DNA from: Nordella sp. HKS 07
Lineage (GTDB): Bacteria; Pseudomonadota; Alphaproteobacteria; Rhizobiales; Aestuariivirgaceae
Direction: 5' to 3'
Length of the DNA: 64,000 nt
Assembly (NCBI RefSeq): GCF_011046735.1
Contig: NZ_CP049258.1
Span: forward strand, 62,001 to 126,000
Part shown: positions 5,800-31,439 of the stretch, one piece after another
Numbering within the stretch: the first letter of the stretch is position 1
Layout of the letters: every line of letters starts with the position of its first letter
Translations under genes and position numbers: made by a program
Notes under the pieces: model-generated
What the model saw: only the letters and a program-made list of their open reading frames with translations
Database searches by the model: none
Told to the model about the DNA's origin: nothing

Positions 5800-6579
5800 A
5801 TGCGCTGTGATTTGAGCGGCCAGGTTGCTTTCGTCACCGGCGGCGCGGGTGCGATCGGCCGCGTCGCGGCACGGCGGCTGGCCGACAATGGCGCCAGCCT
5901 CGTCATTGCCGACATAGATGGCGACGGCGCCCGAGAGATCGCTTCCGGCCTCCCCGACGCCTTGGCGGTCGCTGTCGATATCCGCGACGGCACTGCCGCC
6001 GACCGCGCTGTCGCCGCCACGCTCGAGCGCTTCGGCCGCCTCGACATCCTTATCAACAATGCCGGGGTCAACACGCTGAGCCACCGCGTCGCCATCGACG
6101 AATTCCCGCCCGAAGAGTGGGAGCGCATCACCGGCATCGATCTCGACGGCCTCTATGTGATGAGCCGCGCGGCGCTGCAACCCATGCTCGCCTCCGGGCG
6201 CGGCGGCCGCATCGTCAATATCGCCTCCGTCGTCGGTCTCGCCGCCATGCGCCTGCAAAGTCCCTTTGTTGCCGCCAAGGCCGGCATCATCCATCTCACC
6301 CGTTCGATGGCGCTCGAGCTCGGATCGCGCGGCATTCTCGTCAACGCCATAGCACCCGGCTCCGTCCTTACCGAGCTCACGGCAAAGCTCTTTTATGGCG
6401 AGGACGGCAAGTTCGCGAGCCGGGCGCGCGATTTCATGGCCCATGTACCGCTCGGCCGCCCCGCCGAGCCGCGCGAGATCGCCGAAACCATCTTGTTTCT
6501 CGCCTCCCCAGGTGCGAGCTACGTCAATGGCCAGGTCCTCGCCATCGATGGCGGCTGGACGGCGGGATATATGATGTGA
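5800..6579 (+). CDS. SDR-family oxidoreductase with Phe in place of the catalytic Tyr
   Basis: 259-residue short-chain dehydrogenase/reductase. The Rossmann motif 'TGGAGAIG' (13-20), NNAG (86-89), Ser143 and the C-terminal 'NGQVLAIDGGW' are intact. The YxxxK motif, however, reads F156-VAA-K160, so the general acid/base Tyr is missing. A strong ribosome site (GGGAGGAG) precedes the ATG. The family uses NAD(P) to oxidise sugars or hydroxyacids. With Tyr lost it may be inactive alone, act by another mechanism, or work with the downstream SDR-like protein, whose gene starts 8 bases on, or overlaps by GTGA if GTG 6576 is used. Confidence 0.85.
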   Translation: MRCDLSGQVAFVTGGAGAIGRVAARRLADNGASLVIADIDGDGAREIASGLPDALAVAVDIRDGTAADRAVAATLERFGRLDILINNAGVNTLSHRVAIDEFPPEEWERITGIDLDGLYVMSRAALQPMLASGRGGRIVNIASVVGLAAMRLQSPFVAAKAGIIHLTRSMALELGSRGILVNAIAPGSVLTELTAKLFYGEDGKFASRARDFMAHVPLGRPAEPREIAETILFLASPGASYVNGQVLAIDGGWTAGYMM

Positions 6580-6587
6580 CCGCCGCC

Positions 6588-7166
6588 ATGCAGATCGATC
6601 TTCTGGATACAGCGATTGCTGTTCTGGGTGAAAACAATGCCATCGCACGCGCCGCGACCGCGGCCCTCACCGCCAATGGTGGCCGGATCGTCGCGGACGC
6701 GCCGCGCGCCGACATTCTGCTCGTCTCCTGTCCGCTTGTTGCCGCCGCACCGCAAGGCGATCTCTCTGCGCTGCTGCGGGACGCGCGGGCCGCCGCGACC
6801 GCGATGAGCGCGCGCGACCATGGCCGCATCCTGTTCCTGCTGCCGGCGCTCGCCGCCTTGCCCATGCGCCGCCATCCCCTCTATGGCGCCGAGATGGCCG
6901 GAATACTGGCTTTGATGCGCGGCCTCGCGATGCAATTCGGGCCCCGCGTCCTCGTCAATGCGGTGGGCCTCGGCCCGATCGCGGAAGAGACCCTGATTGC
7001 GGGCGATCCGGCCCAGCTCAGCCATATACCGCAGGGCCGCCCCGGCACGATCGCCGAGGCCGTGGCGGCGATCCTGTTTTTCTGCGATCCGCTCAACACC
7101 TATACGACCGGGCAGATGCTCGCCGTCGACGGCGGCTGGAGCGCCGGCTACGGGCGTAACTTCTAA
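6588..7166 (+). CDS. Degenerate SDR-like protein (probable pseudoenzyme or partner subunit)
   Basis: About 192 residues with an SDR-like second half ending 'TTGQMLAVDGGWSAGY', but the dinucleotide motif is replaced (VLGENNAIA), NNAG and the catalytic Ser are gone, and YxxxK reads Y99-GAE-M103. The full fold is about 60 residues shorter than a normal SDR. It is coupled to the preceding SDR gene: GTG at 6576 overlaps that stop, while the ATG at 6588 is the more usual codon. SDR heteromers with one non-catalytic subunit are known in other systems. A role as a structural or allosteric partner is inference. Confidence 0.75.
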   Translation: MQIDLLDTAIAVLGENNAIARAATAALTANGGRIVADAPRADILLVSCPLVAAAPQGDLSALLRDARAAATAMSARDHGRILFLLPALAALPMRRHPLYGAEMAGILALMRGLAMQFGPRVLVNAVGLGPIAEETLIAGDPAQLSHIPQGRPGTIAEAVAAILFFCDPLNTYTTGQMLAVDGGWSAGYGRNF

Positions 7167-7214
7167 CCTTCATCACGCTTGGCGGCGCCGTCGTGATGAG
7201 GCTACAAGCGAGCC

Positions 7215-8240
7215 ATGGTGGAGAAAAACGGCAAACGCGGCACGGCCAAGCTCGGGGTGCGCGAGATCGCCAAGCGCGTCGGCGTGGCGCCGATGACGGT
7301 GTCGCGCGCGCTGTCCAATCCCGACATGGTCTCGCCCGAGACCCGCGCCAAGGTGCTCGCCGCCATCGACAAGGCCGGTTTCGTCCCGAACCGTCTCGCC
7401 TCGAGCATGCGCGGCAATGGCCGCATGATCGGCACCGTCGTGCCGCCGCTCATCAATTCCGGCATTGCCGATCAGGTGCAGGGCATGTCGGACGAATGCC
7501 ACGAAGGCGGCTATTCGATGCTGCTGGTCCAGGGAGAATTCACCCAGGAAGCCGAGGAGACGGCGATCCGCGCCCTGCTCGGCTGGCGCCCCGCCGGCAT
7601 GATCCTGCAGAGCTTTGTGCAAAGTGCCGCGGCGCGCGCCTTGCTCGCCGGCGGCGGCGCGCCGGTGGTCGAGATCTCCGAGATCAAGGGCCGCAAGCCG
7701 ATCGACATGGCGGTCGGCGTGTCCAATTTCGAAACCGCCTATGCCATGACCATGCATCTGGCGGCCAAGGGCTATAAGCGCATCGGCTTCGTCTCGACCC
7801 CGATCCACGGCAATGACCGCCTGCGCCAGCGCCGCACCGGCTATCATGCCGCACTGGCCGAGCTCGGCATCGCCAACCATGACGACATGGAAGTCGAGGT
7901 GCCGATCACCGCCAAGGGCGGCGCCGACGCCTTGCTCGAGCTCATCGCGCGCCATGCCGATATCGACGCCATTTTCTTTTCAAGCGACACGCTGGCTGTG
8001 GGCGCGGTGCAGGAATGCCACCGCCGCGGCTGGGCGGTGCCCGGACGTATCGCCATCGCCGGCTATGGCGACATGGACATCGCCGCGCAGCTCTTCCCGC
8101 CTCTCACCACGGTCAGGGTCGACCGCTACGAGATGGGACGGCGCGCCGTGCGCCAGCTCCTGGCCCGTTTGAATGGCGATGCCAAGGTGCCGACCGTCAC
8201 CAGCATCGGCTTCGAGATCGTCGACCGCGACAGCGCGTGA
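7215..8240 (+). CDS. LacI-family transcriptional regulator
   Basis: 341 residues. The N-terminal helix-turn-helix 'GVREIAKRVGVAPMTVSRALSN' plus hinge 'VPNRLASSMRG' precedes a periplasmic-binding-protein-like sensor domain (residues about 70-335), as in GntR/LacI regulators. The sensor probably binds the pathway sugar or sugar acid. LacI proteins recognise palindromes with a central CG. Two such sites, TGGTACCGGTATCA on opposite strands, lie in the promoters at 12282 and 23524, and they resemble the E. coli GntR operator core TTACCGGTAA. It is therefore the likely local repressor (inference). Confidence 0.92.
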   Translation: MVEKNGKRGTAKLGVREIAKRVGVAPMTVSRALSNPDMVSPETRAKVLAAIDKAGFVPNRLASSMRGNGRMIGTVVPPLINSGIADQVQGMSDECHEGGYSMLLVQGEFTQEAEETAIRALLGWRPAGMILQSFVQSAAARALLAGGGAPVVEISEIKGRKPIDMAVGVSNFETAYAMTMHLAAKGYKRIGFVSTPIHGNDRLRQRRTGYHAALAELGIANHDDMEVEVPITAKGGADALLELIARHADIDAIFFSSDTLAVGAVQECHRRGWAVPGRIAIAGYGDMDIAAQLFPPLTTVRVDRYEMGRRAVRQLLARLNGDAKVPTVTSIGFEIVDRDSA

Positions 8241-8266
8241 AACGGGCCCCAGACTCGTTTAATTTT

Positions 8267-8461: not shown

Positions 8462-9625
8462 TCACTTCTCCCGCCGCCCCAGCCGCCTTTCCCAGCCTCC
8501 CTCATGCACATTGAGATAGGCGTTGGGATCGTAGGGATGCCGGTCGATCTCATCGATATTGAGATCGATGCCGAGGCCTGGCGCATCGGGCAAGGACAGA
8601 TGGCCGTTCGCCGGATCGATCCCGGGATGCCAGGTGACGAGATCGCGCGTCCAGGGATCGTTGAAGGCGTCGAAATGCTCCTGGATCAGGAAATTCGGCA
8701 CCGCGGCGGCAAGCTGCAGGCAGACCGCGGTCGCTACCGGCCCGCCGCTCTGATGCGGCGCGATATGGCTGCCATGGGCGAAGGCCAGATTGGCCACTTG
8801 CAGGCTCGGCGCGATGCCGCCGAGCGACATCGGCTCGGGCTGAAAGATATTGACGCCGCCGCCCGCCGCCAGGGTGTAGAACTGCCCGACCGTGTCATAC
8901 ATCTCGCCCGTCGCCACCGGAATGGGCGAGCGACGCGCTACCTCGTGCACCGTCTCCTGCCGGTCGCGTGAGGTCGGCTCCTCCCACCAATAGATGTCGA
9001 GATCGGCGAAGCGCTCCGCCGCCTGAAGCGCCGCGATCTCGGTGAAGCGCGCATGCACGTCGATAAGGATCCGCGTGTCGCCCGGCAGGCCGTCGCGCAG
9101 TTTGCGGCAGATCGCATAGGAAAGCTCGAGCTCCTCGCGCGACAGAAAACCCTGCGCCGCACCGAAGGGATCGAGCTTGAGCGCCTTGAAGCCCTTGTCG
9201 ATCACAGCTTTCGCCGCTTCCAGGAAGGCTTCCGGCGTGCGTTCGGTGCGATACCAGCCATTGGCATAGCCCAGCACCGCGTCGCGCATCCGCCCGCCCA
9301 GAAGCTGGTGGATCGGCACGCCGAGGCTCTTGCCGAGAATGTCCCAGCTGGCGACCTCGATCGCGGCGATCACAGTGCGATGGATGTGGCCGCCGTCGAG
9401 CGACACGCTGTCGAGCAGGCGCTTCGCCAGCGCATTGATGCGGCGCGGATCTTGTCCGATGGCCAGGTGCTTGAGCTCATGCACCCCCGCTTCGGTCGTC
9501 TTGATGAAACCGTTGAGCGTTCCCTCGCCCACGCCATGGATCCCCTTGTCGGTATGGACCTTCACGAACAGCCAGTTCTTCCAGCCGGCGCCGACGGTGA
9601 AGGTTTCGATCTCCGTGATCTTCAT
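8462..9625 (-). CDS. Enolase-superfamily sugar-acid dehydratase (galactonate-dehydratase-like)
   Basis: 387 residues of the mandelate racemase/muconate lactonizing group. The N-terminal capping domain starts MKITEIETF. The barrel carries 'ALKLDPFG', the metal ligands Asp (in 'ILIDVHAR'), Glu (in 'WWEEP') and Glu (in 'ATGEMYD'), and a C-terminal 'APHQSGG' His. The Asp-x-His and barrel-end His match the D-galactonate dehydratase type, which removes water from an aldonate to give a 2-keto-3-deoxy acid. It is the last gene of a minus-strand operon with the split transketolase and an SDR. Substrate unknown. Confidence 0.9.
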   Translation of the reverse strand: MKITEIETFTVGAGWKNWLFVKVHTDKGIHGVGEGTLNGFIKTTEAGVHELKHLAIGQDPRRINALAKRLLDSVSLDGGHIHRTVIAAIEVASWDILGKSLGVPIHQLLGGRMRDAVLGYANGWYRTERTPEAFLEAAKAVIDKGFKALKLDPFGAAQGFLSREELELSYAICRKLRDGLPGDTRILIDVHARFTEIAALQAAERFADLDIYWWEEPTSRDRQETVHEVARRSPIPVATGEMYDTVGQFYTLAAGGGVNIFQPEPMSLGGIAPSLQVANLAFAHGSHIAPHQSGGPVATAVCLQLAAAVPNFLIQEHFDAFNDPWTRDLVTWHPGIDPANGHLSLPDAPGLGIDLNIDEIDRHPYDPNAYLNVHEGGWERRLGRREK

Positions 9626-9635: not shown

Positions 9636-10625
9636 CTATCTCACGGCAGTGATCTTCTCGACGATCGCCGCCGTCGTCAAACCGTAGCGCGCCTGCAGCG
9701 TCGGTACCGCACCGCATTCGATATAGCGGTCCGGCAGGCCGATCCGGGTGATCTTGCGCGCCACGCCGGCGTCGAACAGGGTCTCGGCGACGAGGCTCGC
9801 AAGCCCGCCCGCCACGACATGGTTCTCCGCGGTGACGAGATGATCGACATGCGCCGCGAAATCCGCCACGGCGTCGTGATCGAAGGGCTTGATCGTCGGC
9901 ACATGCAGGACGCCGACGCTGATGCCGCGCTTTTCGAGCTCCGCCGCCGCATCGAGCGCGCGTTCCGTCATCAACCCCGTCGCGATGATGCCGACATCTT
10001 TGCCTTCGCGCAGCTTGCGCGCCTTGCCGATTTCGAAGCGATAGCCGGGATCGAGAACGACCGGTACATTGCCGCGCAGCAGCCGCATATAGACGGGGCC
10101 CGGATGATCGGTGATCGCCGCCGTCGCCGCCATGATCTCGGTCGCATCGCAGGGATCGATGACGACGAGGCCGGGGATCATCCGCATCAGCGCCAGATCC
10201 TCGATCGCCTGATGCGTGCCGCCATAGCCGGTGGTGATCCCCGGCAAGCCGGCGATGATCTTCACATTCAGGTTGGAATGGGCGAGCGCTATGGCCACGA
10301 AATCATAAGCGCGCCGGGTCGCAAAGACGCCATAGGTGGTGGCGAAAGGCTGCTTGCCGGCCCGCGCCAGTCCTGCCGCCACCGCCACGAGATTCTGCTC
10401 TGCCATGCCGACATTGAAGAAGCGCTCCGGGAAGGCGTCGCGGAACGGATGGATGTCGGTATATTTGCCGAGATCGGCGGTGAGGCCGACGATCTCCGGC
10501 CGCGTCTGGGCCAGCTTCGCCAGGGCCTGGCCGAAGGGCGCGGTGATGTTCTGCCGTCCGCCGCCGGTCGCCTCGTCCTGCCCCATGGCGAGGGTGCGGC
10601 CGGCCTGTTTCGTTGGTGCACTCAT
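9636..10625 (-). CDS. Transketolase C-terminal subunit
   Basis: 329 residues: the pyrimidine-binding half of a transketolase followed by the transketolase C domain. 'VGLTADLGKYT', 'FNVGMAEQNLVAVAAGLARAGK' with the catalytic Glu, and 'GVFATRRAYDF' mark the Pyr domain; 'KDVGIIATGLMTERAL' opens the C domain. It pairs with the N-terminal subunit encoded just upstream (3 bases between genes) to form a thiamine-diphosphate enzyme moving two-carbon ketol units. Split transketolases in sugar operons usually act on unusual sugar phosphates or sugar acids rather than in the general pentose phosphate pathway. Confidence 0.92.
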   Translation of the reverse strand: MSAPTKQAGRTLAMGQDEATGGGRQNITAPFGQALAKLAQTRPEIVGLTADLGKYTDIHPFRDAFPERFFNVGMAEQNLVAVAAGLARAGKQPFATTYGVFATRRAYDFVAIALAHSNLNVKIIAGLPGITTGYGGTHQAIEDLALMRMIPGLVVIDPCDATEIMAATAAITDHPGPVYMRLLRGNVPVVLDPGYRFEIGKARKLREGKDVGIIATGLMTERALDAAAELEKRGISVGVLHVPTIKPFDHDAVADFAAHVDHLVTAENHVVAGGLASLVAETLFDAGVARKITRIGLPDRYIECGAVPTLQARYGLTTAAIVEKITAVR

Positions 10626-10628: not shown

Positions 10629-11471
10629 TCAGCCCCTCACGCTGTCTTCGAATTCGGCGATGATGCTGTCCCATTGCGCCACATCGACACTGAAGAAATG
10701 CGATTTCGGGCTCGCCTCGATGCGCGCCGCACCCTTGCCGGGCTTGGTGCGCAGCACGATCGCCTTGGGTTTGCCGTTGCGGCTGCGCGTGCGCGCCAGG
10801 GCATCGCTCACCGCTTGCATGTCGTTGCCGTCGATTTCGATCGTCTCCCAGCCGAAGGCACGCCATTTGTCGGCGACCGGCTCCATGTCGAGCACCATCG
10901 GCCCGTCCGCCTGGATGCCGTTGCAATCGATCAGCGCGACCAGGCGGTCGAGACCGAAATGGCTTCCCGCCATCGCCGCCTCCCAGGTCGAGCCCTCCTG
11001 CATCTCACCGTCCGACAGTTCGACGAAGACGCGCGCGTCGGAAGCAGACAGCCTGACGCCGAGGGCTTGGCCTACGCCCTGCCCGAGACCATGGCCGAGC
11101 GAGCCGCCGATCACCTCGACGCCTGGCGTCGTGTCGAGCGTCGACATTTCGAGCCGGCTGTCATCGGCGCCATAGGTGGAAAGCTCGGAGAGCGGGATGA
11201 TCCCCGCTTCGGCGAGGGCCGCCCACAAGGCGATCGAATAATGTCCGGTCGAGAGCAGGAATCGGTCGCGGTCCGCCCAGTCGAGATTGCCGGCGTCATA
11301 GCGCATTTCATGGAAGTAGAGCGCCGCCAGGAGATCGGCGATGCCGAGCCCCTGGCCGATATAGCCCTGCCCCTGGCCGCGCGCCATGGTGAGCATGTGG
11401 CGGCGCAGGCTGGTCGCGCGCCGCTTGAGATCTGCGACATCGGCGTCGCCGGGTGGAGAATTGCGTGCCAT
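10629..11471 (-). CDS. Transketolase N-terminal subunit
   Basis: 280 residues: the diphosphate-binding half. 'SLRRHMLTMARGQGQGYIGQGLGIADLLAALYF' includes the usual start of the domain; in 'QGQGYIGQG' the common 'GHIGGS' signature is altered to Y-I-G-Q. 'DRFLLSTGHYSIALWAAL' and 'GSLGHGLGQGVG' follow, then the metal/ThDP motif 'SDGEMQEGSTWEA', ending in the 'NG' of 'DCNGIQADG'. It is directly between the SDR and the C-terminal subunit gene, all on the minus strand, so the four genes form one operon. The altered substrate-side loop fits a specialised donor. Confidence 0.92.
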   Translation of the reverse strand: MARNSPPGDADVADLKRRATSLRRHMLTMARGQGQGYIGQGLGIADLLAALYFHEMRYDAGNLDWADRDRFLLSTGHYSIALWAALAEAGIIPLSELSTYGADDSRLEMSTLDTTPGVEVIGGSLGHGLGQGVGQALGVRLSASDARVFVELSDGEMQEGSTWEAAMAGSHFGLDRLVALIDCNGIQADGPMVLDMEPVADKWRAFGWETIEIDGNDMQAVSDALARTRSRNGKPKAIVLRTKPGKGAARIEASPKSHFFSVDVAQWDSIIAEFEDSVRG

Positions 11472-11475: not shown

Positions 11476-12270
11476 TCAGTCCTTGTCGAGTCCGCCGGAC
11501 ATATTGAGCCGCTCGGCGGTCATGTAGGCGGGCGCATCGAGCGCCAGCCAGACGACGGCTTTCGCCACTTCGCCGATCTCGGCGCGCCGGCCGAGCGGAA
11601 TGCGCCGGGTGCGCTCGTCCAGAAAGGCCTGCAGATCGTCGCGGCCGTTGATGCGGGCGAGTTCGACCTCGGTCGAGCGCTGCATGTCGGTGTCCATCAT
11701 GCCGGGCGCCAGGCTGTTGACCAGAACGCCATAGGGCGCGAGTGCCACGGCGAGCGCGCGCGTGATCGAATCGACGCCAGCCTTGCTCGCCGTGTAGGCC
11801 GTATAATCGGGCAATGCCATGCGCGAGCCGGGCGAGGTGATATTGACGATGCGCCCCGAACGTTGATCACGCATCACCCGCCCCGCCGCCTTGCAGGCCA
11901 TGGCGAGTGCCGTGACATTGAGCGCCATGGTGCGCGTCCAGCAGGCGAAGGTGGACTCGAGAAAGGGCTCGATGGCGCCATAGCCCGCATTGTTGATGAG
12001 GATATCGATGCCGCCCCAGCGCGTGACGACCTTCTCCACCGCGGCCTCGGGCGCGCCCTCACGGGTGAAGTCGCTGACGATCGCCTCCGCCTCGGCCCCT
12101 TCAGCGCGCACGAGTTGCGCTGTCTCGGCGATGCCGGCTTCATTGATGTCGGTGATGGCGACGGCGGCACCCCGCCTTGCCAGTTGCAGTGCCACTTCGC
12201 GGCCGAGCCCGCCGGCGGCGCCCGTGACGAGCGCCCGTGGGCGCGTCTCATTCTTCGGTTTGTCGGTCAT
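11476..12270 (-). CDS. SDR-family dehydrogenase (canonical)
   Basis: About 264 residues with every classical SDR motif: 'ALVTGAAGGLG' for NAD(P), 'INNAGYG', Ser in 'NITSPGS', 'YTASK', and 'NSLAPGMMDTDM'. It is likely to oxidise a sugar, aldonate or keto-deoxy acid in the local pathway. An ATG nine codons upstream (12297) is also in frame, but the operator and -10 region at 12282-12296 cover it, so the ATG at 12270 is preferred; the transcript would then have a very short leader. It is the first gene of the minus-strand operon with the split transketolase and dehydratase. Confidence 0.9.
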   Translation of the reverse strand: MTDKPKNETRPRALVTGAAGGLGREVALQLARRGAAVAITDINEAGIAETAQLVRAEGAEAEAIVSDFTREGAPEAAVEKVVTRWGGIDILINNAGYGAIEPFLESTFACWTRTMALNVTALAMACKAAGRVMRDQRSGRIVNITSPGSRMALPDYTAYTASKAGVDSITRALAVALAPYGVLVNSLAPGMMDTDMQRSTEVELARINGRDDLQAFLDERTRRIPLGRRAEIGEVAKAVVWLALDAPAYMTAERLNMSGGLDKD

Positions 12271-12281
12271 CTTGACGATGA

Positions 12282-12310
12282 CTGATACCGGTACCATAAA
12301 TCTCTGTCAA
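12282..12310 (-). promoter_or_regulatory. Promoter with LacI-type operator, upstream of the SDR-transketolase operon
   Basis: On the minus strand TTGACA (12310-12305), 17 bases, then TATCAG (12287-12282). The 14-base near-palindrome TGGTACCGGTATCA (12296-12283) covers the spacer end and -10. The ABC operon at 23524 has exactly the same arrangement. It sits between divergent genes, so it may also affect the dehydratase at 12373. The regulator is probably the LacI protein at 7215. Confidence 0.7.
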
Positions 12311-12372: not shown

Positions 12373-13593
12373 ATGAAGATCGTCGCCATCGAGACCGTGC
12401 AGATCGCGGAGTTTCCTTTCCTCTTCTGGCTGCGGCTCTATACCGATGCCGGTATCGTCGGCACCGGCGAGACCTTCTGGGCGCCGGGGCCGGTGGCGAG
12501 CTACATTCACGATCATGTCGCCTCCTATCTCCTCGGCAAGGATCCGCGCGACATCGAGCTGCATGATCGCACGCTGGCCAGCGTCTATGTCGGCGCCCGC
12601 GACTCGGGCGCCGAACTGCGCGGCAATTCGGCCGTCAATATCGCGCTCTGGGATATTTACGGCCAGGCGCTTGGCGAGCCCGTCTGGCGCCTGCTCGGCG
12701 GGCGCACCCACCATAGTGTCCCGATCTACAACACCTGCGCCGGTTATGGTCATGTCAGGGCGACGAAGCGCAACGCTCTCTTCGAGCGCACCGAGGACTG
12801 GTCGCTGAAGCCCGGGGATTCGGCCGAAGGGCCTTACGAGGATCTTCTGGCCTGGCGTTACAATGCCGGCGAGTTGGCCAAGAGCCTGTTTTCCGAAGGC
12901 ATCGGCGCCATGAAGATCTGGCCCTTCGACATCGCCGCCGAGGCGTCCAACGGCACGCGCCTGTCGCTGGCCGATCTCGACAAGGCGCTCGCGCCCTTCG
13001 CGAAGATTCGTGAGGCCGTCGGCCGCGAGATGGAGATCATGGTGGAGCTCCACGGCCTGTGGACCCTGCCGCCCGCTCTGCGCATCGCCGAAGCGCTGAA
13101 GCCCTATGACGTGGCATGGCTCGAGGAGCCGATCCGCTACAACGAGCTCGACGCCTTGGCCGAGCTCGCCCGCCACACGACCATTCCGATCGCCGCGAGC
13201 GAGCGGCTCGCCACGCGCCAGATGTTCAAGCAGCTGATCGACAGGCGCGGCGCCTCGGTGATCATGATCGACCTGGCCTGGTGCGGCGGCCTTTCCGAAG
13301 CCCGCAAGATCGCCAACATGGCCGAAGCGAGCGAGCTTCCGGTGACCTTGCATGATTGCACCGGGCCCGTCGTCTACGCCGCGAGTTGCGCCCTGTCCGC
13401 CACGCTGCCTAATGTAAATTACCAGGAAGCGGTGCGCGCTTATTACACCGGCTGGTACCGCGAGATCACCGACGACATCCCGGTTGTGACCGCCGGAAAA
13501 GTGGCGCCTTTGGAAGGACCGGGCCTTGGCCTCAGCCTCAAGCCGGAGCTGTTCCGAAGATCGGATGCAACGGTCCGCAAGACCGCGCTGTGA
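12373..13593 (+). CDS. Second enolase-superfamily sugar-acid dehydratase
   Basis: 406 residues, mandelate racemase/muconate lactonizing family. The start MKIVAIETVQ follows GGAGAGGG; an earlier in-frame ATG adds only nine non-conserved residues. The barrel has 'AMKIWPFD', the metal ligands Glu (in 'IMVELHGLW'), Glu (in 'WLEEP') and Glu (in 'AASERLA'), and a His-Asp pair in 'LHDCTGP'. It is a different subgroup from the dehydratase at 8462, so two dehydration steps or two substrates are possible. It is transcribed away from the SDR-transketolase operon, with a LacI-type operator between them. Confidence 0.9.
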   Translation: MKIVAIETVQIAEFPFLFWLRLYTDAGIVGTGETFWAPGPVASYIHDHVASYLLGKDPRDIELHDRTLASVYVGARDSGAELRGNSAVNIALWDIYGQALGEPVWRLLGGRTHHSVPIYNTCAGYGHVRATKRNALFERTEDWSLKPGDSAEGPYEDLLAWRYNAGELAKSLFSEGIGAMKIWPFDIAAEASNGTRLSLADLDKALAPFAKIREAVGREMEIMVELHGLWTLPPALRIAEALKPYDVAWLEEPIRYNELDALAELARHTTIPIAASERLATRQMFKQLIDRRGASVIMIDLAWCGGLSEARKIANMAEASELPVTLHDCTGPVVYAASCALSATLPNVNYQEAVRAYYTGWYREITDDIPVVTAGKVAPLEGPGLGLSLKPELFRRSDATVRKTAL

Positions 13594-22337: not shown

Positions 22338-22373
22338 GGCCTCACAATGCGTGGCTGTCATGTGGATTGACCG

Positions 22374-23360: not shown

Positions 23361-23413
23361 ATGTTGGTCGACACCACCTCCGCCGCAGCAGACGCATGGA
23401 CAAGGCCATAAAA

Positions 23414-23427
23414 TTATAATAGCATGA
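23414..23427. promoter_or_regulatory. AT-rich operator candidate, site D (sugar ABC operon)
   Basis: TTATAATAGCATGA matches site A (TTATAATAGCATAA) at 13 of 14 bases. It is about 110 bases upstream of the -35 of the ABC operon promoter. Confidence 0.5.
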
Positions 23428-23523: not shown

Positions 23524-23552
23524 TTGACAAGGAGAATTGGTACCGGTATCAA
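23524..23552 (+). promoter_or_regulatory. Promoter with LacI-type operator, sugar ABC operon
   Basis: TTGACA (23524-23529), 17 bases, TATCAA (23547-23552). The operator TGGTACCGGTATCA occupies 23538-23551, in the same position relative to -35 and -10 as in the promoter at 12282. Repression by the LacI protein at 7215 is the natural reading. Confidence 0.75.
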
Positions 23553-23629
23553 AAATAGCCCCTTCTTCGAGGCAAGACGGCGAAGTCCGCATGAAGCTGA
23601 ACCAGGAAACGCAAGCAGGGAGGAACACC

Positions 23630-24751: not shown

Positions 24752-26260
24752 ATGCCCATGGATCTCATTGAAGCCACCGGCCTGTCCAAGCGCTTTGGCG
24801 GCATCGTCGCGCTGAGCGAGGTCGCTTTCAGCGCCGCCGCCGGCGAGGTGCACGCGCTTCTGGGCGAGAATGGCGCCGGCAAGAGCACCTTCATCCAGAT
24901 TCTCTCCGGCGCCATCAGACACGATGCCGGATCGATCCTGATCGATAACCGCGACTATCGGCCCGCCGACCCCGACGCGGCCCGCGCCCGCGGCATCGCA
25001 GCGGTGTTCCAGGAACTCTCGCTGATCCCCGATCTCACCGTCGAGCAGAATATCTGGTTCCGCCAGGAGCCGCGCGGCGTGCTGCGCACCGTGGACAAGC
25101 GCGTGATGCGCCGCAAAACCGAGAAGCTTCTGGCGAAATACGACTTTCCCGAGCTGCGGGCGGGCCAGGAATTGCGCCACCTGACGCTCGCCGAGCGCCA
25201 GATCGTCGAGATTGCCAAAGGTCTCGCCAAGGAGCCCCGTATCCTGATCCTCGACGAAGCCACCTCGGCCTTGCCCGCCCGCGAGGCGGAATGGCTGCTC
25301 AATCTTACGCGCCAACTGGCCGCCGAAGGCCGACTTGTCATCTTTATCTCGCACCGCATGACCGAGATCCGGGCCATCGCCGACCGGCTCACCATCTTCC
25401 GCAATGGCCGCACCGTCGGCGCGCACAAGGCGGACGCCGTATCCGACGCCGAGATCGTCACCCAGATGATCGGCCGCAATATCGATCGGCTCTACCCTGA
25501 GCGTGTCGCCACCGCGACGGACCGCCTGGCGCTGAGTGTGCGGAATCTGTCGAGCGGAACGAGACTCGACCGCATCACGTTCGACTTGCGCGAAGGCGAG
25601 GTCCTGGGTGTCGGCGGCCTGCAGGGCCACGGCCAGCGTGAGCTCTTCCAGGCGCTCTTCGGCGCTGCCAAAGCCGGCGGCACGGTGGAGCTCTGGGGCA
25701 AGCCTGCTTCGCTCACGAGCCCGCGCGCGGCCCTGACGGGACGCGACGGCATTGCGCTCGTGCCGGAGGACCGGCGCGGCCAGGGACTGCTTCTCGCCAA
25801 GAGCGTGCGCGAAAATCTGACCTTGGCCGTCATCCGGCGCTTCACCGAGAAGGGTCTGCTCAGCCGCCGCAAGGAAGCCGCCCTCGTCCAGGAGATGGTC
25901 GATTTCCTGCGCATCAAGGCCGAGACGCCCGAGCAGCTCGCCGGCACCTTGTCGGGCGGCAATCAGCAGAAGGTGATCTTCGGCAAGATGCTTCTGACGG
26001 AAGCACGCGTGCTCCTGCTCTATGATCCGACGCGCGGCGTCGATGTCGGCACCAAGAGCGAGATCTTCCAGCTGATGCGCGACCTCGCCGCCAAGGGTTA
26101 CGCCATCCTCTTCCATTCAAGCGACTTGTCCGAGCTGGTACATGTCGCCGACCGCGTGCTGGTGATGCGCAACGGCCGCATCGCGGCGACGCTTTCCGGC
26201 GAATTTATTTCCGAGGAAGGCATTCTCGGTGCGGCGATGCTCGACAGCGAGGCGGCGTGA
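24752..26260 (+). CDS. Sugar ABC transporter ATP-binding protein (RbsA/MglA type)
   Basis: 502 residues with two ABC domains. The first has Walker A 'GENGAGKST', an altered signature 'LRHLTLAERQIVEIAKGL' and Walker B 'ILILDEATSAL'. The second has a degenerate Walker A ('GLQGHGQREL'), the signature 'LSGGNQQKVIFGKML' and Walker B-like 'VLLLYDPTRGVD'. This pairing of one good and one degenerate site is usual for RbsA. It powers sugar uptake with the two permeases that follow. The stop TGATG overlaps the next start. Confidence 0.95.
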   Translation: MPMDLIEATGLSKRFGGIVALSEVAFSAAAGEVHALLGENGAGKSTFIQILSGAIRHDAGSILIDNRDYRPADPDAARARGIAAVFQELSLIPDLTVEQNIWFRQEPRGVLRTVDKRVMRRKTEKLLAKYDFPELRAGQELRHLTLAERQIVEIAKGLAKEPRILILDEATSALPAREAEWLLNLTRQLAAEGRLVIFISHRMTEIRAIADRLTIFRNGRTVGAHKADAVSDAEIVTQMIGRNIDRLYPERVATATDRLALSVRNLSSGTRLDRITFDLREGEVLGVGGLQGHGQRELFQALFGAAKAGGTVELWGKPASLTSPRAALTGRDGIALVPEDRRGQGLLLAKSVRENLTLAVIRRFTEKGLLSRRKEAALVQEMVDFLRIKAETPEQLAGTLSGGNQQKVIFGKMLLTEARVLLLYDPTRGVDVGTKSEIFQLMRDLAAKGYAILFHSSDLSELVHVADRVLVMRNGRIAATLSGEFISEEGILGAAMLDSEAA

Positions 26261-27267
26261 TGGCCGAACCCTTGAGCCGGATGGCCGGCATCGGCCCCCG
26301 CCCGTCGCTCGCCGACTGGCGCGCCCGGCTGCTCGACCGGGCTCCTTTCCTGGTCGCCTGCCTGATGCTGGCCGTCATCGTGCTCATTTATGGCAGCTAT
26401 CAGACCGGTGTCTTCACGCTCGATGAGCTCAATCTCGACACCGCCGCGGCGATGACCTTGATGCTGGCGGCCACCGGCCAGACGATCGTGCTCTTGCGCG
26501 GCGGCATCGATCTGTCGATCGGCGGCATGATCAGCCTCGGCACGGTGATCGCCGCGACCCGTTTCGGCGACGACCCGGCCCAGGTGGTGCTGTGGTCGCT
26601 GCTCATCCTCGCCCTCGGCTTCGCCATCGGCGCGTTGAACGGCCTGATGATCTCCGCCTTGAAGCTCCAGCCCTTCCTGGTGACGCTCGCCACCTGGTCG
26701 ATCCTGAGCGGCACCGCCATGCTCATCCTGCCGACTGACGGCGGCAGCGTGCCGGGCTGGTGGCTCGGCTTCGGCTATATGCATTTCCTCGGCCTGTCGG
26801 GCCCGGTCTGGATGCTGATCGCGCTCATCCTCTTCTGGTTTTGGTTCCGCGCCACGCGCATGGGCATCACCATTCAGGCCACCGGCTCCAACGAGAAATC
26901 GGCCTTCCTGTCCGGAGTCTCGATCACCAGGGTCAACATCGTCACCTATGGCCTGTCCGGTCTGTTCGCGGCGGGTGCCGCTCTCTATCTCACCACCCAG
27001 ACGGGAGCCGGCTCTCCGACCATTGGCAAGGACTACATCCTGCCGTCAGTCGCCGCCGCGGTGATCGGCGGCGTCAGCCTGTTCGGCGGGCGCGGCCATC
27101 TCGCCGGCACGCTCATCGGCGCCTTCATCCTCACCCTCATCGGCAATCTGGTCTTCGTGCTCAAGATCTCGAGCTACTGGCAGCCCGTGGCCTCGGGCGC
27201 GATTCTCCTTCTGTCGGTCCTGGCGAGCTCACTTGCCGAGAAGGCCGCACGTGGGCGCGGCGCATGA
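26260..27267 (+). CDS. Sugar ABC transporter permease 1 (RbsC type)
   Basis: 335 residues, eight or more membrane helices. It carries the BPD_transp_2 features 'TIVLLRGGIDLSIGGMISLG' and 'GAVIGG'-like 'AAVIGGVSLFGGRGHLAGTL'. It starts at the ATG overlapping the ATPase stop (TGATG), which indicates coupled translation. It forms a heterodimeric pore with permease 2, whose start overlaps this stop (ATGA). Confidence 0.93.
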   Translation: MAEPLSRMAGIGPRPSLADWRARLLDRAPFLVACLMLAVIVLIYGSYQTGVFTLDELNLDTAAAMTLMLAATGQTIVLLRGGIDLSIGGMISLGTVIAATRFGDDPAQVVLWSLLILALGFAIGALNGLMISALKLQPFLVTLATWSILSGTAMLILPTDGGSVPGWWLGFGYMHFLGLSGPVWMLIALILFWFWFRATRMGITIQATGSNEKSAFLSGVSITRVNIVTYGLSGLFAAGAALYLTTQTGAGSPTIGKDYILPSVAAAVIGGVSLFGGRGHLAGTLIGAFILTLIGNLVFVLKISSYWQPVASGAILLLSVLASSLAEKAARGRGA

Positions 27268-28250
27268 GCGCGTTCCTCATCCGCAACCGGTCGATCGTGC
27301 TGGCCTATGCCGGCATGGCGGTCCTGCTGCTCGTCACCTCGCTGTTCTCGCCTGGCTTCCTCTCCGCCGCCAATATGAGCTCAACGCTGGTGCTTGCCAC
27401 CTTTATCGGGATCGTCGCGCTCGGCCAGACTCTGGTGATCATCGGCGCCGGCATCGACCTTTCGGTACCCTGGGTGCTGAATGCCGCCGCGATCATCATG
27501 ACCCTGCTCTGCGCCGGCCAGGACACGCCGCTTCTCTGGGTGGCGCCCCTGGTTCTCGCCGGCGCCGCCGGCATCGGCCTCATCAATGGCATCGGCGTAG
27601 CGCATTTCGGCGTGCCGCCGATCATCATGACGCTCGCCACCAATGTCATTCTGCAGGGGCTGGTTCTGGTCGTCACCGGTGGCTCGCCCACGCCTTCGGC
27701 TCCCGATTTGATCAAGTTCCTCTCCGTCGGGCGCATCGGCGGCTTTCCCGTCATCGCCTTCATCTGGATCTTTCTGGCACTCCTCGCCACGCTGCTGCTG
27801 TCGAAGACCGCTTTCGGCCGTCATCTCTATGCCGTCGGCTGCAACCGCACGGTCGCCGAATTCTCCGGCGTCCCGGTGGCCCGCACCACGCTGCTCACTT
27901 ATGTGATCTCCGCCCTCGCCGCCGCAACGGCGGGCATGCTGCTGACCGGTTATTCGGGACAGGCCTATCTCGGCATGGGCGATGCCTATCTCTTTACCTC
28001 GGTCGCCGCCGTCGCCATTGGCGGCGCCTCGATCCTCGGCGGCAGCGGGCACTATCTTGGCACCATCGCGGGCGCGCTTGTCCTGACGATCCTCACCGGT
28101 CTCCTGCCGGCGCTCAATCTGTCGAGCGGTGCGCTGCTCATCGTCTATGGCGCGGTGATCCTCATCACGGTCACGATCGGCAGCGAGGTCTTCACCGGTC
28201 TCGCGCGCGCTTTCGGCAGCGAAAACAACAAAGGCAAGAAGGAGAGCTGA
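27264..28250 (+). CDS. Sugar ABC transporter permease 2 (RbsC type)
   Basis: 328 residues, multiple membrane helices. Conserved permease segments are 'QTLVIIGAGIDLSVPWVLNA' and 'VAIGGASILGGSGHYLGTI', with the cytoplasmic coupling region 'GRHLYAVGCNRTVAEFSGV'. It overlaps permease 1 by four bases and is followed after one base by the SMP-30 gene, so import and lactone opening are co-expressed. Confidence 0.93.
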   Translation: MSAFLIRNRSIVLAYAGMAVLLLVTSLFSPGFLSAANMSSTLVLATFIGIVALGQTLVIIGAGIDLSVPWVLNAAAIIMTLLCAGQDTPLLWVAPLVLAGAAGIGLINGIGVAHFGVPPIIMTLATNVILQGLVLVVTGGSPTPSAPDLIKFLSVGRIGGFPVIAFIWIFLALLATLLLSKTAFGRHLYAVGCNRTVAEFSGVPVARTTLLTYVISALAAATAGMLLTGYSGQAYLGMGDAYLFTSVAAVAIGGASILGGSGHYLGTIAGALVLTILTGLLPALNLSSGALLIVYGAVILITVTIGSEVFTGLARAFGSENNKGKKES

Positions 28251-28251: not shown

Positions 28252-29133
28252 ATGGTGGACATCACATGCGTCGTCGACGCCAAGGCGGAACTGGGCGAAG
28301 GCACGCTGTGGGATCCCAAGGCCGGCGTCCTGTGGTGGATCGATATCTGGAGCAAGCTGATCCATCGCTACGACCCGCGCACCGGCAGAGATGAAACCTT
28401 CGAAGCGCCCCATTATCTCGGCTGCCTGGGCCTGCGCGAGAAGGGTGGCCTGGTGCTCACCATGGCCGACGGCTTCCATTTCTTCGATCCCGCGACCGGC
28501 AGGTTCACGGCGATCGCCGATCCCGAGAACCATATGCCCGAGACGCGCTTCAATGACGGCAAGCCCGACCGCCAGGGCCGCTTCTGGTCGGGTTCGATGT
28601 TCGAGGTGCCGGGCCGACCGATAGAGTTCGTCGGCGCCCTCTACCGGATGGATCATGATCTTTCGATCCATCGCATGATCGAGGGCATTGGCTGCTCCAA
28701 CGGCCTCGCCTGGAGTCCGGACAGCCGCACAATGTATTTTTCCGACAGCCATGCCGGCGCCGTGTGGGCCTATGATTTCGATCCCGCCACCGGCGATATC
28801 GAGAACCGCCGCACCTTCATCGACATGACCGTCACCGGCGGCGTCGCCGACGGCGCCACCGTCGATGCGGAGGGTTGCTACTGGGTCACTATCCCCGTCA
28901 CCAGCAAGGTCTGCCGTTACGACCCAAAGGGCAAGCTGATGCAGACGGTGATGCTGCCGACCGATCTGCCGACCTGCTGCGAATTCGGCGGCGAAAATCT
29001 CGACATCCTCTATGTCACCTCCGCCGTTCTCCGGCGTCCACCCGGGCATTTCAAGGGCCAGAAAAATCCAGGCGGACTCTTCGCGCTCGATGTCGGTGTC
29101 AAGGGACTCACTCTGCCGGCATTCAGGGGCTAG
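28252..29133 (+). CDS. SMP-30/gluconolactonase/LRE-family lactonase
   Basis: 293 residues, six-bladed propeller. The metal-binding Glu is in 'ELGEGTLWDP', the Asn in 'RFNDGKPDRQGRFW', the second Asn in 'GCSNGLAWSPDS', and the Asp near 'VADGATVDAEGCYW'. It hydrolyses a sugar lactone to the aldonate, which links the SDR oxidation step to the dehydratases. It is one base after permease 2. A close relative of senescence marker protein 30/regucalcin, as is usual in bacterial sugar operons. Confidence 0.92.
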   Translation: MVDITCVVDAKAELGEGTLWDPKAGVLWWIDIWSKLIHRYDPRTGRDETFEAPHYLGCLGLREKGGLVLTMADGFHFFDPATGRFTAIADPENHMPETRFNDGKPDRQGRFWSGSMFEVPGRPIEFVGALYRMDHDLSIHRMIEGIGCSNGLAWSPDSRTMYFSDSHAGAVWAYDFDPATGDIENRRTFIDMTVTGGVADGATVDAEGCYWVTIPVTSKVCRYDPKGKLMQTVMLPTDLPTCCEFGGENLDILYVTSAVLRRPPGHFKGQKNPGGLFALDVGVKGLTLPAFRG

Positions 29134-29230
29134 CTATTAACCCGCGAGGCTGGACATGACGCGTCAACGGGTGACCTGCGCCCGCACGCTGACGCTCAAC
29201 AATGGCGCATTCGATGCATGGGAGGAAAAC

Positions 29231-30034
29231 ATGCGGATATTGCTGAAATGGCTGATGGCCTCGGGGCTCATGATCGTCATGGCTTTTGGGCTGGGCACAA
29301 TGGCTTCGGCGCAGACCGTCGATGAGATCATCGCCCGGGGCAAGCTCATTGTCGCCATCGATACCACCACGCCACCCTACGGATTTCTGGACGCGGAACT
29401 GAAGCCGACGGGTTTCGACATCGAGGTCGCCAACAAGATGGGCGAAGCGCTCGGCGTTCCCGTCGAATTCGTAACCGTCACGTCCCCCGGCCGCATTCCC
29501 GCGCTCTTGACCAAACAGGTCGACGCGGTGATCTCGATCTTCTCGATCACGCCGGCGCGCGCCATCCAGATCGACTATTCGATCCCCTATGCCGGACAAT
29601 CGGCGGTGGTGATCGCGCCCAAGAGCACCGTTATCAAGGGCCACGCCGATCTCGTCGGCAAGAAGATCGGGCTGACCCGCGGCACCGGTGAGGACGGACT
29701 CCTGACCGCCGCGGCCAAGGCCAATCCCGGCATCGAGATCCTGCGCTTCGACGATTACTCCTCATTGCTGCAGGCGATGGTCTCCGGCCAGATCGACGCC
29801 ATGGGCGGCGGCGATTACGGCGAGATCTATCTGAAGAAGAGCGAGAAGGGCGACGACTTCGAGCAGAAATACATCCTCAAGACCTTCTATTTCGGCATCG
29901 GCGTCGCCAAGGGCAACGACAATCTGCGCCAGTGGGTGAATACTTGGCTATTCAGCATGAAGACCGACGGCACGCTCGAGGCCATGTCGATGAAATACCG
30001 CAATCAGCCACTGCCCGCTTTGCCGGTGTTCTGA
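29231..30034 (+). CDS. Amino-acid-type ABC transporter substrate-binding protein
   Basis: 267 residues of SBP family 3. A signal peptide ends near 'MASAQ' (residue about 28). The binding domain reads 'GKLIVAIDTTTPPYGFLDAELKPTGFDIEVANKMGEAL', with the ligand Arg in 'RIPALLTKQVDAVIS'. The start at 29231 is chosen for its GGAGG site; an upstream ATG lacks one. It is probably specific for a polar amino acid or an opine/acidic compound. Followed by two permease genes but no ATPase. Confidence 0.9.
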   Translation: MRILLKWLMASGLMIVMAFGLGTMASAQTVDEIIARGKLIVAIDTTTPPYGFLDAELKPTGFDIEVANKMGEALGVPVEFVTVTSPGRIPALLTKQVDAVISIFSITPARAIQIDYSIPYAGQSAVVIAPKSTVIKGHADLVGKKIGLTRGTGEDGLLTAAAKANPGIEILRFDDYSSLLQAMVSGQIDAMGGGDYGEIYLKKSEKGDDFEQKYILKTFYFGIGVAKGNDNLRQWVNTWLFSMKTDGTLEAMSMKYRNQPLPALPVF

Positions 30035-30087
30035 TTCTCCTCATGAAGCGGGGCCGATAGCGCCCCGCTTCTCCTATCTTTCGAGGC

Positions 30088-30762
30088 ATGTCCATGCAAA
30101 GCACCCTGCAGTTCGGCCCGATCCTGGCGCATTTCGACCTCTTGCTCCTGGGCCTTGCCTATACATTTCAACTCGCCGTCCTCTCCATCCTGTTCGGCAC
30201 TGTCATCGGCGTATTGGGCGCCGTCGCGCGCAGCTTCGGCCCGCGCCCGCTGTCCTGGCTCGTCGGCGCGTATGTCGAGATCATCCGCAACACGCCTTTG
30301 CTCATCCAGCTCTATTTCGTCTTCTTCTCGCTGCCGCTCTTCGGGCTCAAGCTTTCGAGCAACATGGCGGCCATCGTGGCGCTCTCCATTCATCTGGGCG
30401 CCTATGCGACCGAGATCCTGCGCGCCGGCATCGCCTCCATATCGCAAGGCCAGATCGAGGCGGCCAAGGCATTGGGCCTCGGTCCTTACCGCATCATTCG
30501 CCATGTCGTGCTGGCGCCGGCAGTCCGCGCCGTCTATCCCGCACTGACCGCGCAATTCATCCTCCAGCTGCTCGGCACCTCGATCGTCGGCGCCATTGCC
30601 GCCGAGGAACTGACGGCGATTGCCAACAACCTTGTCATGCAGACATTCCGCAGTTTCGAGGTCTACATCCTCATCGCCGTGATCTATTTCGCCCTCGTTC
30701 AGCTGGCGAGCCTCGTCTTCGCCGGCATCGCCCGCCTTTTGTTCCGCTGGAAATCATCATGA
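30088..30762 (+). CDS. Amino-acid-type ABC transporter permease 1
   Basis: 224 residues, HisM/GlnP-like. It has about five helices with 'GLAYTFQLAVLSILFGTVIG' near the start and the EAA loop 'GQIEAAKALGLGPYRIIRHV', which contacts an ATPase. 'YVEIIRNTPLLIQLYFVFFS' is the family's typical second motif. The stop overlaps the next start by four bases. Confidence 0.92.
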   Translation: MSMQSTLQFGPILAHFDLLLLGLAYTFQLAVLSILFGTVIGVLGAVARSFGPRPLSWLVGAYVEIIRNTPLLIQLYFVFFSLPLFGLKLSSNMAAIVALSIHLGAYATEILRAGIASISQGQIEAAKALGLGPYRIIRHVVLAPAVRAVYPALTAQFILQLLGTSIVGAIAAEELTAIANNLVMQTFRSFEVYILIAVIYFALVQLASLVFAGIARLLFRWKSS

Positions 30763-31439
30763 GCCTGCGCGATTTCGGCCCCAACGAACTGATGTTCCTG
30801 CTTCTCGCGACGCGCTGGACCATCATGCTCGCGCTGATCGCCTTCGTAGGTGGTGGTGCTCTCGGTCTCGTCATCGCCGCGGCCCGCATCGCGCCGGCGC
30901 GGCCGCTGCGCTGGCTGGCCCTGGGCTACATCCAGTTCTTCATGGGCACGCCGATATTGATCCAGCTGTTCATGGCCTATTACGGCGCCTCGCTCCTAGG
31001 GTTCCGGCCCGATCCATGGTTCGCCGCCGCGCTCACCTTCTGTCTCAATGCCGGGGCCTTCTTCGGCGAGATATTTCGTGGCGCGATCACCGCCATCCCC
31101 AAGGGCCAGTGGGAAGCTTCGGCAACTCTCGGCTTTCGTTTCCTGCGCACCTTGCGGCTGGTGATCATTCCGCAGGCGATGCGGCTCATGCTGCCGCCCA
31201 CCGTCGGCTTCATGGCGCAGATCGTGAAGACAACGTCGGTCGCCTCGCTGATCGGGCTCACCGAGCTCGCACGCGCCGCGACACAGGTCAACACCGTCAC
31301 CTTTCAGCCGGTGATGGTGTTCGGCACGGTCTCGGTGATCTATTTCGCCTTGTGCTGGCCCCTGTCGCTTTATGCCGCCAGGCTCGAGGGACGTCTCGCC
31401 GGCCATGTGATACGCAAGCCGGCGCTGCCCGCCGCATGA
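30759..31439 (+). CDS. Amino-acid-type ABC transporter permease 2
   Basis: 226 residues, same family as the preceding gene: 'GYIQFFMGTPILIQLFMAYY' and the EAA loop 'GQWEASATLGFRFLRTLRLV'. It overlaps permease 1 (ATGA). The operon ends here: a palindromic repeat and then minus-strand genes follow, so the ATP-binding subunit must come from elsewhere in the genome. Confidence 0.92.
   Translation: MSLRDFGPNELMFLLLATRWTIMLALIAFVGGGALGLVIAAARIAPARPLRWLALGYIQFFMGTPILIQLFMAYYGASLLGFRPDPWFAAALTFCLNAGAFFGEIFRGAITAIPKGQWEASATLGFRFLRTLRLVIIPQAMRLMLPPTVGFMAQIVKTTSVASLIGLTELARAATQVNTVTFQPVMVFGTVSVIYFALCWPLSLYAARLEGRLAGHVIRKPALPAA

Follow-up and report, generated by a model that had tools for sequence, protein, structure and literature searches.

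Two thiamine diphosphate enzymes that look like alternative cleavage modules in a conserved sugar-acid gene cluster of Nordella sp. HKS 07

What route of sugar breakdown would draw on two different thiamine diphosphate (ThDP) enzymes, a split transketolase and an E1-type fusion protein, alongside two sugar-acid dehydratases? The question is posed by a gene cluster at 5.8–31.4 kb of a stretch of the Nordella sp. HKS 07 genome 64,000 nucleotides long (contig NZ_CP049258.1, positions 62,001 to 126,000), which is called the window here and whose own numbering is used unless stated otherwise. Open reading frames (ORFs) of the window were typed with Pfam and NCBIfam, the cluster being scanned over 4798–31439. 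The first-pass annotation had named a ribose-type (CUT2) importer, short-chain dehydrogenases (SDRs), an SMP-30 lactonase, two different enolase-superfamily dehydratases (MR1 and MR2), a D-2-hydroxyacid dehydrogenase (HDH), a transketolase (TK) split into N- and C-terminal halves (TKN and TKC), a fusion of E1alpha, E1beta and lipoyl domains (E1L) and regulators of the LacI and GntR/UTRA families, and all of these genes are present (Table 1). Its statement that aldolases and kinases are missing agrees with the scan, in which no ORF of 4798–31439 carried an aldolase or sugar-kinase domain (Pfam/NCBIfam). It had also called the combination unrecognised, and no description of the gene set was found in the open-access literature searched (titles and abstract starts). 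The gene set suggests that sugar can be broken down by a route not yet mapped, in which the transketolase pair and E1 look like alternative carbon–carbon (C–C) cleavage modules rather than consecutive steps.

The gene set is real and widespread, and is one conserved system. A profile built from an alignment of four MR1 proteins was searched against genome contigs, and the best 80 of 118 confirmed stretches gave 79 distinct loci, at each of which the presence or absence of other genes was judged within fetched flanks that extended no more than 10 kb to either side of MR1. These loci span six named phyla and one candidate phylum, with hosts in Mesorhizobium, Devosia, Kaistia, Bosea, Bauldia and Comamonadaceae on the Pseudomonadota side and further hosts in Acidobacteriota, Verrucomicrobiota, Planctomycetota, Chloroflexota, Actinomycetota and the candidate phylum. 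Around MR1 the same genes recur (tblastn and gene clustering): MR2 at 56/79 loci, SDR2 at 59/79, HDH at 47/79, and TK and/or E1 at 71/79. Such co-occurrence in other genomes had been set beforehand as a check on the first-pass proposal, and the 79 loci bear it out. The order common in Mesorhizobium, where SBP denotes the CUT2 sugar-binding protein, is SBP-GntR-(E2-like)-HDH-E1L-MR2 / SDR2-TKN-TKC-MR1 / LacI, continued after LacI by (second CUT2-type importer + SDR) / aldose epimerase / small SDR / SDR1, and it resembles the window order closely.

A second anchor gave a similar association. Close relatives of E1L were sought in 297 genomes of the order, three candidates being scored per genome, and were found in nine, the window's genome included; MR1 shares a contig with the close E1L in seven of the eight others, 8.8–31.8 kb apart from start to start, several of these genomes being the same assemblies as in the MR1-anchored set. 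For comparison, a search of the other 59 relatives yielded one genome with MR1, and a further search of 384 other genomes, in which up to five candidates each were scored, yielded none. Within the window's own genus, a search of four genomes returned no MR1 at E 1e-120 and no TKN at E 1e-90, and the cluster is therefore sporadic there at those cut-offs; a transfer from a Mesorhizobium-like donor probably brought it into the window's genome.

How the two ThDP enzymes are distributed among the loci bears most directly on their relationship. Both occur in the flanks of 33 of the 79 MR1 loci, TK alone in 29, E1 alone in nine and neither in eight. Outside Pseudomonadota (22 loci, excluding L096, which is titled Bosea and has no phylum assigned) the two are never found together: 13 loci have TK only, six E1 only and three neither, and in ten of the 19 one-enzyme loci the sequence seen reaches 8 kb or more to each side of MR1. 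The three without either enzyme (L119, L120 and L125) carry an MR1 merely 62–63% identical, and five of all eight such loci (L069, L111, L115, L120 and L136) are shorter than 12 kb, being cut by contig ends. The clearest case of exchange is provided by Actinomycetota: L124 reads CUT2-MR1-SDR-MR2-HDH-E1alpha-E1beta, and L129 matches this order as far as its contig goes, which breaks off at the beginning of E1; L131 reads CUT2 / MR1-SDR-MR2-TKC-TKN, and L130 reads CUT2 / SDR-TKC-TKN-MR1. The SDRs of all four form one clade in the tree (100/100). In Comamonadaceae, L109 and L112 have SDR1-type genes, grouped with SDR1 at 89/99, next to E1 and without TK. HDH (at least 32% identity, HDH-like paralogues included) is found at 38/42 loci with E1 versus 5/29 TK-only loci. 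The titles of some records call for caution. One of the 13 TK-only loci, L094 (titled Cephaloticoccus capnophilus, Verrucomicrobiota), has genes 75–84% identical to those of the window, and an MR1 identity of 84% together with an SDR2 that falls beside a Rhizobiaceae sequence in the tree would fit a recent transfer, or else a contig that was mis-binned or is a contaminant. L121 (Chloroflexota, titled Dehalococcoidia) and L123 (titled Acidiferrobacteraceae) have the flanking gene clusters c40–c43 in common, so one of the two titles may be wrong.

Two sequence motifs add a regulatory side to this distribution. TGRTACCGGTAYCA has two sites and ATTATAATAGCAT three exact copies in the whole 7.18-Mb genome, all of them in the cluster, and reversed control patterns of both motifs gave no genome matches. 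In relatives the first motif, at matches of at least 12/14, precedes SDR2 (36/52), MR2 (30/55), SBP (15/33), LacI (8/44) and the second importer, c1 (7/31), one shuffle per stretch giving 0 or 1; at three mismatches it is near chance in the window, with five matches, a number reached by 3/100 shuffles. The second motif, taken as an extended palindrome at matches of at least 13/18, precedes SBP (30/33), E1L (32/47), SDR1-type genes (26/34), LacI (12/44) and c1 (13/31), with none before these genes in shuffled stretches. LacI is predicted to bind the first motif and GntR/UTRA the second. The gene set is apparently co-regulated, and the placement of the motifs suggests two regulated branches, SDR2-TK-MR1 with MR2 and SDR1 with E1L-HDH, under both of which stands one shared importer. 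Such an arrangement, with two separate motifs unique in the genome, makes the question directly testable by expression and growth.

The ThDP enzymes thus look alternative because they replace each other outside Pseudomonadota, in the flanks seen, and because each branch has its own motif. Consecutive use of both as a general rule is disfavoured by the 79-locus counts within those flanks. What the first-pass annotation had pictured, a possible oxidative sugar-acid pathway built on two ThDP enzymes, is partly supported, by the conserved set and the cluster-only motifs; a single linear route ending in both enzymes is not supported, in view of their mutual replacement and of the separate branch motifs.

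What chemistry might such a system perform? The reading we favour, at just short of an even chance, is a single catabolic system, acting on a sugar or on the corresponding aldonic acid, in which either of two ThDP modules can carry out the C–C cleavage. The sugar would enter through the CUT2 importer, an SDR and the SMP-30 lactonase would turn it into the aldonate, and MR1 and MR2 would dehydrate (2R)-type sugar acids, the type of aldonate to which the His base points in enolase-superfamily chemistry, to 2-keto-3-deoxy acids. An SDR would oxidise a hydroxyl group to yield an acyloin (alpha-hydroxyketone), presumably the same intermediate for both ThDP enzymes, which would then be cleaved by one or the other. 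Transketolase and acetoin-dehydrogenase-type E1 have a common first half-reaction, in which ThDP adds to a ketone and the bond to the neighbouring hydroxylated carbon is broken with release of an aldehyde; what differs is the fate of the C2 unit. They would therefore be natural substitutes, provided that an upstream SDR makes an acyloin from the sugar acid. The LacI branch would use SDR2 and the split transketolase, which would transfer the C2 ketol unit to an aldehyde serving as acceptor; in the GntR branch, SDR1 and E1L (with HDH here) would cut the same type of bond, as in acetoin dehydrogenase, and E1L would oxidise the C2 unit and load it on the lipoyl arm that it carries itself. The substrate of HDH would be a 2-oxo or 2-hydroxy acid. 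Two forms of the scheme may be envisaged: either a 2-keto-3-deoxyhexonate is oxidised at C5 and then cleaved between C4 and C5, or the aldonate itself is oxidised at C5, cleaved, and dehydrated later. ThDP cleavage would explain why neither an aldolase nor a sugar kinase is needed.

The usual classification of oxidative sugar-acid pathways goes by the final reaction, that of an aldolase or of a hydrolase. If the favoured reading is true, ThDP cleavage is a further kind of last step, present in several phyla and carried out by two interchangeable enzymes, and a function follows for the MR1 group of enolase-superfamily dehydratases.

A considerable number of observations weigh against this reading. 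Absence of TK or E1 here means absence from the fetched flanks, not from whole genomes: locus L098 (G015), counted as having neither, has E1L beyond its flank (seen in L059), and the TK-only loci L097, L100 and L107 share contigs with G698, G667 and G683, where E1L lies farther out. Both ThDP enzymes are present in 33/57 Pseudomonadota loci (L096 counted in) and may therefore act on different compounds, and G651 has the E1 branch with MR1 absent from the contig. Phylogeny is not uniformly helpful either. The transketolases linked to MR1 are not one clade, a single clade being rejected by the approximately unbiased (AU) test at p 2.7e-5; the SDR2-type genes that accompany TK in several phyla group weakly (85/61); and in L121 and L124 the E1 proteins sit on long branches that do not join the E1L clade. 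Three E1-only loci outside Pseudomonadota (L121, L122 and L127) have hardly any of the set apart from MR1 and E1. HDH is patchy near E1L in seven genomes, with a close match (58–59%) only in G667 and G087, merely a 33% match in G698 and G683, and none in the stretch in G651, G633 and G130.

Residue comparisons belong partly on the same side. They were made with the TktA and DgoD sequences of the E. coli K-12 record, and residue numbering and roles, for the SDR motifs as well, are those we take to apply. The transketolase pair keeps the ThDP/Mg residues D155 and N185 together with H66 and H261 in 59/59, and the catalytic E411 and H473 in 58/59 (one gap). Of the TktA substrate pocket (H26, H100, R358, S385, H461, D469 and R520) R520 alone is kept, in 59/59: H26 has become Tyr (59) and H100 Ser or Ala (59), H461 is Gly (56), D469 is Tyr (56), S385 is deleted (59) and R358 is also gone. 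With most of these residues lost, the usual donor contacts and an aldose-phosphate acceptor cannot be assumed. Four split transketolases from other contexts show the same losses. The window's genome has a second split transketolase at genome positions 6976376–6977966 (L152), with an N half about 40% identical. SDR1 has Phe for the catalytic Tyr in 31/31 full-length rows from Rhizobiales (L059 and L098 being one gene counted twice) and may for that reason not be an ordinary alcohol dehydrogenase; the SDR1-type proteins of L109 and L112 keep the Tyr. SDR1 does pass a broad 'glucose 1-dehydrogenase' subfamily model (217.6 against a cut-off of 215), the only pass among the 25 models shown. Of the three SDR-type genes in the cluster one is short and degenerate; the Lys is missing from this small SDR beside SDR1, both here and in almost every listed copy.

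How do other explanations fare against this evidence? One of them, somewhat unlikely in our estimation, has E1L work as a conventional 2-oxoacid dehydrogenase, removing CO2 from the 2-keto-3-deoxy acid or from a 2-oxo acid formed further on, with TK acting elsewhere in one pathway with variable ends. In Pfam, NCBIfam and PDB the matches of the E1 domains are to pyruvate and branched-chain 2-oxoacid dehydrogenases, MR dehydratases yield 2-oxo acids, and an intact E2 follows E1 in L109, L112 and L118; the Actinomycetota exchange of E1 for TK beside one SDR clade and the same dehydratases, however, is not predicted by a sequential scheme, and the E2-like partner in Rhizobiales has no catalytic His. 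The same exchange, in which one SDR clade and one MR1/MR2 set go with either ThDP enzyme, speaks against two separate pathways for sugars that resemble each other (stereoisomers, for instance), pathways which do no more than share an importer and lie side by side, each ThDP enzyme having a substrate of its own. We rate that explanation as unlikely, although it would accommodate the separate regulators and motifs with an importer carrying both, the membership of SDR1 and SDR2 in different SDR groups of the tree, the MR1-less E1 branch of G651 and the further cassette (HpcH aldolase, MR2-like and HDH-like genes) that adjoins some loci. A chance neighbourhood of common catabolic genes has next to no probability: all the families are indeed common, but TK and/or E1 near MR1 in 71/79 loci and motifs found nowhere else in the genome refute it.

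Returning to the two alternative cleavage modules, the partners of E1L deserve attention of their own. The lipoyl ETDK motif with the modified lysine is present in 36/36 E1L proteins longer than 750 aa. Next after E1L, L109 encodes E2 as a protein of its own, in which Pfam finds the acyltransferase domain intact; L112 has a counterpart of this E2. The E2-like partner in Rhizobiales consists of an E3-binding domain and a core with no Pfam acyltransferase match, which is related to E2 by profile comparison (98.3% probability, E 1.2e-14, 228 columns); its catalytic His is replaced in 31/31 (Ala 23, Thr 7, Pro 1) and kept in 4/4 E2 controls. Its structure as predicted from 11 sequences had a mean predicted local distance difference test (pLDDT) score of 38.9, too low for a fold search. 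A gene for this partner was not found in the window's genome, where the sole match was the E3-binding part of another E2; no E2 with the catalytic His stands beside E1L in the window, E2 of the alpha/beta-hydrolase type not having been searched for, and the two acyltransferase (PF00198) genes of the genome, at 2.06 and 5.86 Mb, both lie away from the cluster. On a distinctly improbable but far-reaching proposal, the Rhizobiales E1L would be a CoA-independent ThDP-lipoyl acyloin oxidase that splits the acyloin derived from the sugar, oxidises the C2 unit on the lipoyl arm and releases a free acid rather than an acyl-CoA, the catalytically dead E2 relative (none in this genome) serving only to dock lipoamide dehydrogenase, with SDR1 and its Lys-less small partner rewired alongside. 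Partners that are conserved yet catalytically degenerate would make the system well suited to studying how a ThDP-lipoyl enzyme can do without a classical acyltransferase.

The dehydratases are conserved in their catalytic residues. MR1 keeps D183, H185, E209, E235, H285 and E310 of DgoD in 74/74, with Glu at 258 in 73, and so retains the acid/base His pair and metal ligands of D-gluconate/D-galactonate dehydratase; it scores below the curated cut-offs of the models for those enzymes (257 vs 750; 240 vs 311), and its nearest solved structure by sequence reaches just 184 bits. MR2 keeps H185, E209, E235 and D258 in 53/53 and H285 in 52, with Glu at 183.

Table 1. Features of the cluster and its surroundings in the window
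Feature	Position	Strand	Remark
ATTATAATAGCAT, candidate GntR/UTRA operator	5760..5772	+	before SDR1; in relatives, conserved ahead of SDR1, E1L and SBP
SDR1, short-chain dehydrogenase	5800..6579	+	Phe replacing catalytic Tyr
Small SDR-like protein	6588..7166	+	Lys of YxxxK replaced (Met here); adjoins SDR1, pairing conserved
LacI-family regulator	7215..8240	+	closest curated models, none reaching its cut-off, are those of gluconate regulators
MR1, acid-sugar dehydratase	8462..9625	-	D-gluconate/D-galactonate-dehydratase-like; system marker
TKC, transketolase C-terminal half	9636..10625	-	
TKN, transketolase N-terminal half	10629..11471	-	ThDP-binding
SDR2	11476..12297	-	adjoins transketolase pair; true start probably near 12270, from overlap with the motif
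Palindrome TGATACCGGTACCA, candidate LacI operator	12283..12296	.	between SDR2 and MR2; one of two genome sites
MR2, second enolase-superfamily dehydratase	12373..13593	+	ORF from 12346
Response regulator/histidine kinase pair	14072-16692	-	between MR2 and E1L
Sulfatase	16867-18612	+	between MR2 and E1L
ATTATAATAGCAT	18799..18811	-	inside promoter-like site before E1L
E1L, single chain of E1alpha, E1beta and lipoyl domain	18875..21268	+	longest ORF from 18818
HDH, D-2-hydroxyacid dehydrogenase	21283..22293	+	often, not always, near E1
ATTATAATAGCAT, weaker copy	22326..22338	-	2 mismatches; before GntR
GntR/UTRA regulator	22374..23132	+	
ATTATAATAGCAT	23413..23425	+	before CUT2 importer
Ribose-type (CUT2) importer, overall span	23537-28250	+	
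Palindrome TGGTACCGGTATCA, candidate LacI operator	23538..23551	.	before CUT2 importer
CUT2 sugar-binding protein (SBP)	23591..24697	+	nearest PDB match 4pe6, titled merely 'Putative ABC transporter'
CUT2 ATPase	24752..26260	+	
CUT2 permease 1	26281..27267	+	
CUT2 permease 2	27264..28250	+	
SMP-30/gluconolactonase-family lactonase	28252..29133	+	
Family-3 (amino-acid-type) binding protein	29156..30034	+	adjoins MR1 in Kaistia-type loci
Two amino-acid-type ABC permeases	30088-30762, 30759-31439	+	

Several neighbouring features lie outside the core of the system. The two-component pair and the sulfatase between MR2 and E1L, which the first-pass annotation had left unmentioned, are not part of the conserved set in relatives, and this segment (14072–18612), with a GC content of 0.57–0.58, below the rest, and a histidine kinase with a weak ABC-substrate-binding-like match, was probably inserted. 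Sulfoquinovose, a candidate substrate prompted by the sulfatase and by the sulfo-transketolase (sulfo-TK) pathway, was set aside, as neither the sulfatase nor the two-component pair is conserved with the set. The amino-acid-type binding protein and its two permeases (29156–31439), which have no ATPase gene alongside, are conserved next to MR1 in Kaistia-type loci, and this transporter suggests a second substrate that is an acid or amino-acid-like. Loci of the Kaistia type (L036:12251-18498, L097, L102 and L107) also have a neighbouring cassette beside the system, with a CUT1-type importer, an MR2-like dehydratase, a 2-hydroxyacid dehydrogenase, an HpcH/HpaI aldolase and a GntR-FCD regulator. 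A creatinase/M24-type protein stands inside E1-type gene runs in L118:8841-10001 (Chloroflexota; Pfam) and L129:2847-3980 (Actinomycetota; clustering). Between genes of the cluster, at 8270–8289 and again at 23196–23215, lies the near-palindrome TTCTCCCGCCTGCGGGAGAA, which looks like a dispersed repeat similar to repetitive extragenic palindromic (REP) elements. At 20–3422 of the window, a Ku gene is followed by the LigD functions on two genes (ligase/phosphoesterase; primase-polymerase). Rfam and tRNA scans across the window gave no matches.

How far, finally, does the cluster resemble systems already described? The oxidative L-fucose and L-rhamnose routes proceed in the order dehydrogenase, lactonase, dehydratase, and the window is like them in holding SDR, lactonase and enolase-superfamily dehydratase together. 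The sulfo-Entner–Doudoroff (sulfo-ED) pathway has the same order in the excerpted text of PMC12890257. The final enzyme of these routes is a diketo-acid hydrolase or an aldolase, in whose place the ThDP enzymes may stand here: neither a 2,4-diketo-3-deoxy acid hydrolase (FAA-hydrolase family) nor an aldolase was found among the scanned ORFs of the window cluster. Relatives do include an FAA hydrolase in L118 (Pfam) and L094 (by clustering), and an HpcH aldolase in the neighbouring cassette of some loci. In the acetoin dehydrogenase complex (AcoAB-AcoC-AcoL), ThDP cleaves an acyloin to an aldehyde and an acyl-lipoyl group. E1L is like it in its E1alpha/E1beta and lipoyl domain with the modified-lysine motif, and unlike it in being fused into one chain, in having no acyltransferase adjoining in the window and in its linkage to sugar-acid genes; acetoin/acyloin cleavage by E1L is predicted by this analogy. 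MR1, for its part, shares D183, H185, E209, E235 and H285 with the D-galactonate/D-gluconate dehydratases but scores below their curated models.

Transketolases that act on unusual sugars are perhaps the most instructive comparison. As given in the excerpted text of PMC12016104, an engineered E. coli transketolase converts 5-keto-D-gluconate to tartaric semialdehyde by a cut between C4 and C5, which provides an engineered precedent for the form of the favoured scheme in which the aldonate itself is oxidised at C5; it is likewise a transketolase cutting an oxidised sugar acid, though engineered or proposed and with no dedicated conserved cluster in that text. A natural precedent for a transketolase that cleaves a non-phosphorylated sugar derivative is the sulfo-TK enzyme SqwGH, a ThDP transketolase which, as that pathway is outlined in the excerpts of PMC12890257, acts on a ketose-type derivative and passes the C2 unit to glyceraldehyde 3-phosphate (GAP), and which is encoded by two genes, like the split transketolase of the window cluster. 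Sulfo-TK starts with an isomerisation, in contrast to the oxidation and dehydration proposed here, and Pfam scans of the window cluster ORFs found no sugar isomerase domain, a criterion of that pathway; as described in those excerpts, it is presented with no mention of an enolase-superfamily dehydratase or of an E1-lipoyl alternative. The parts of the system are thus known, and their combination and the exchange of ThDP enzymes within it are new as far as the open-access literature searched shows.

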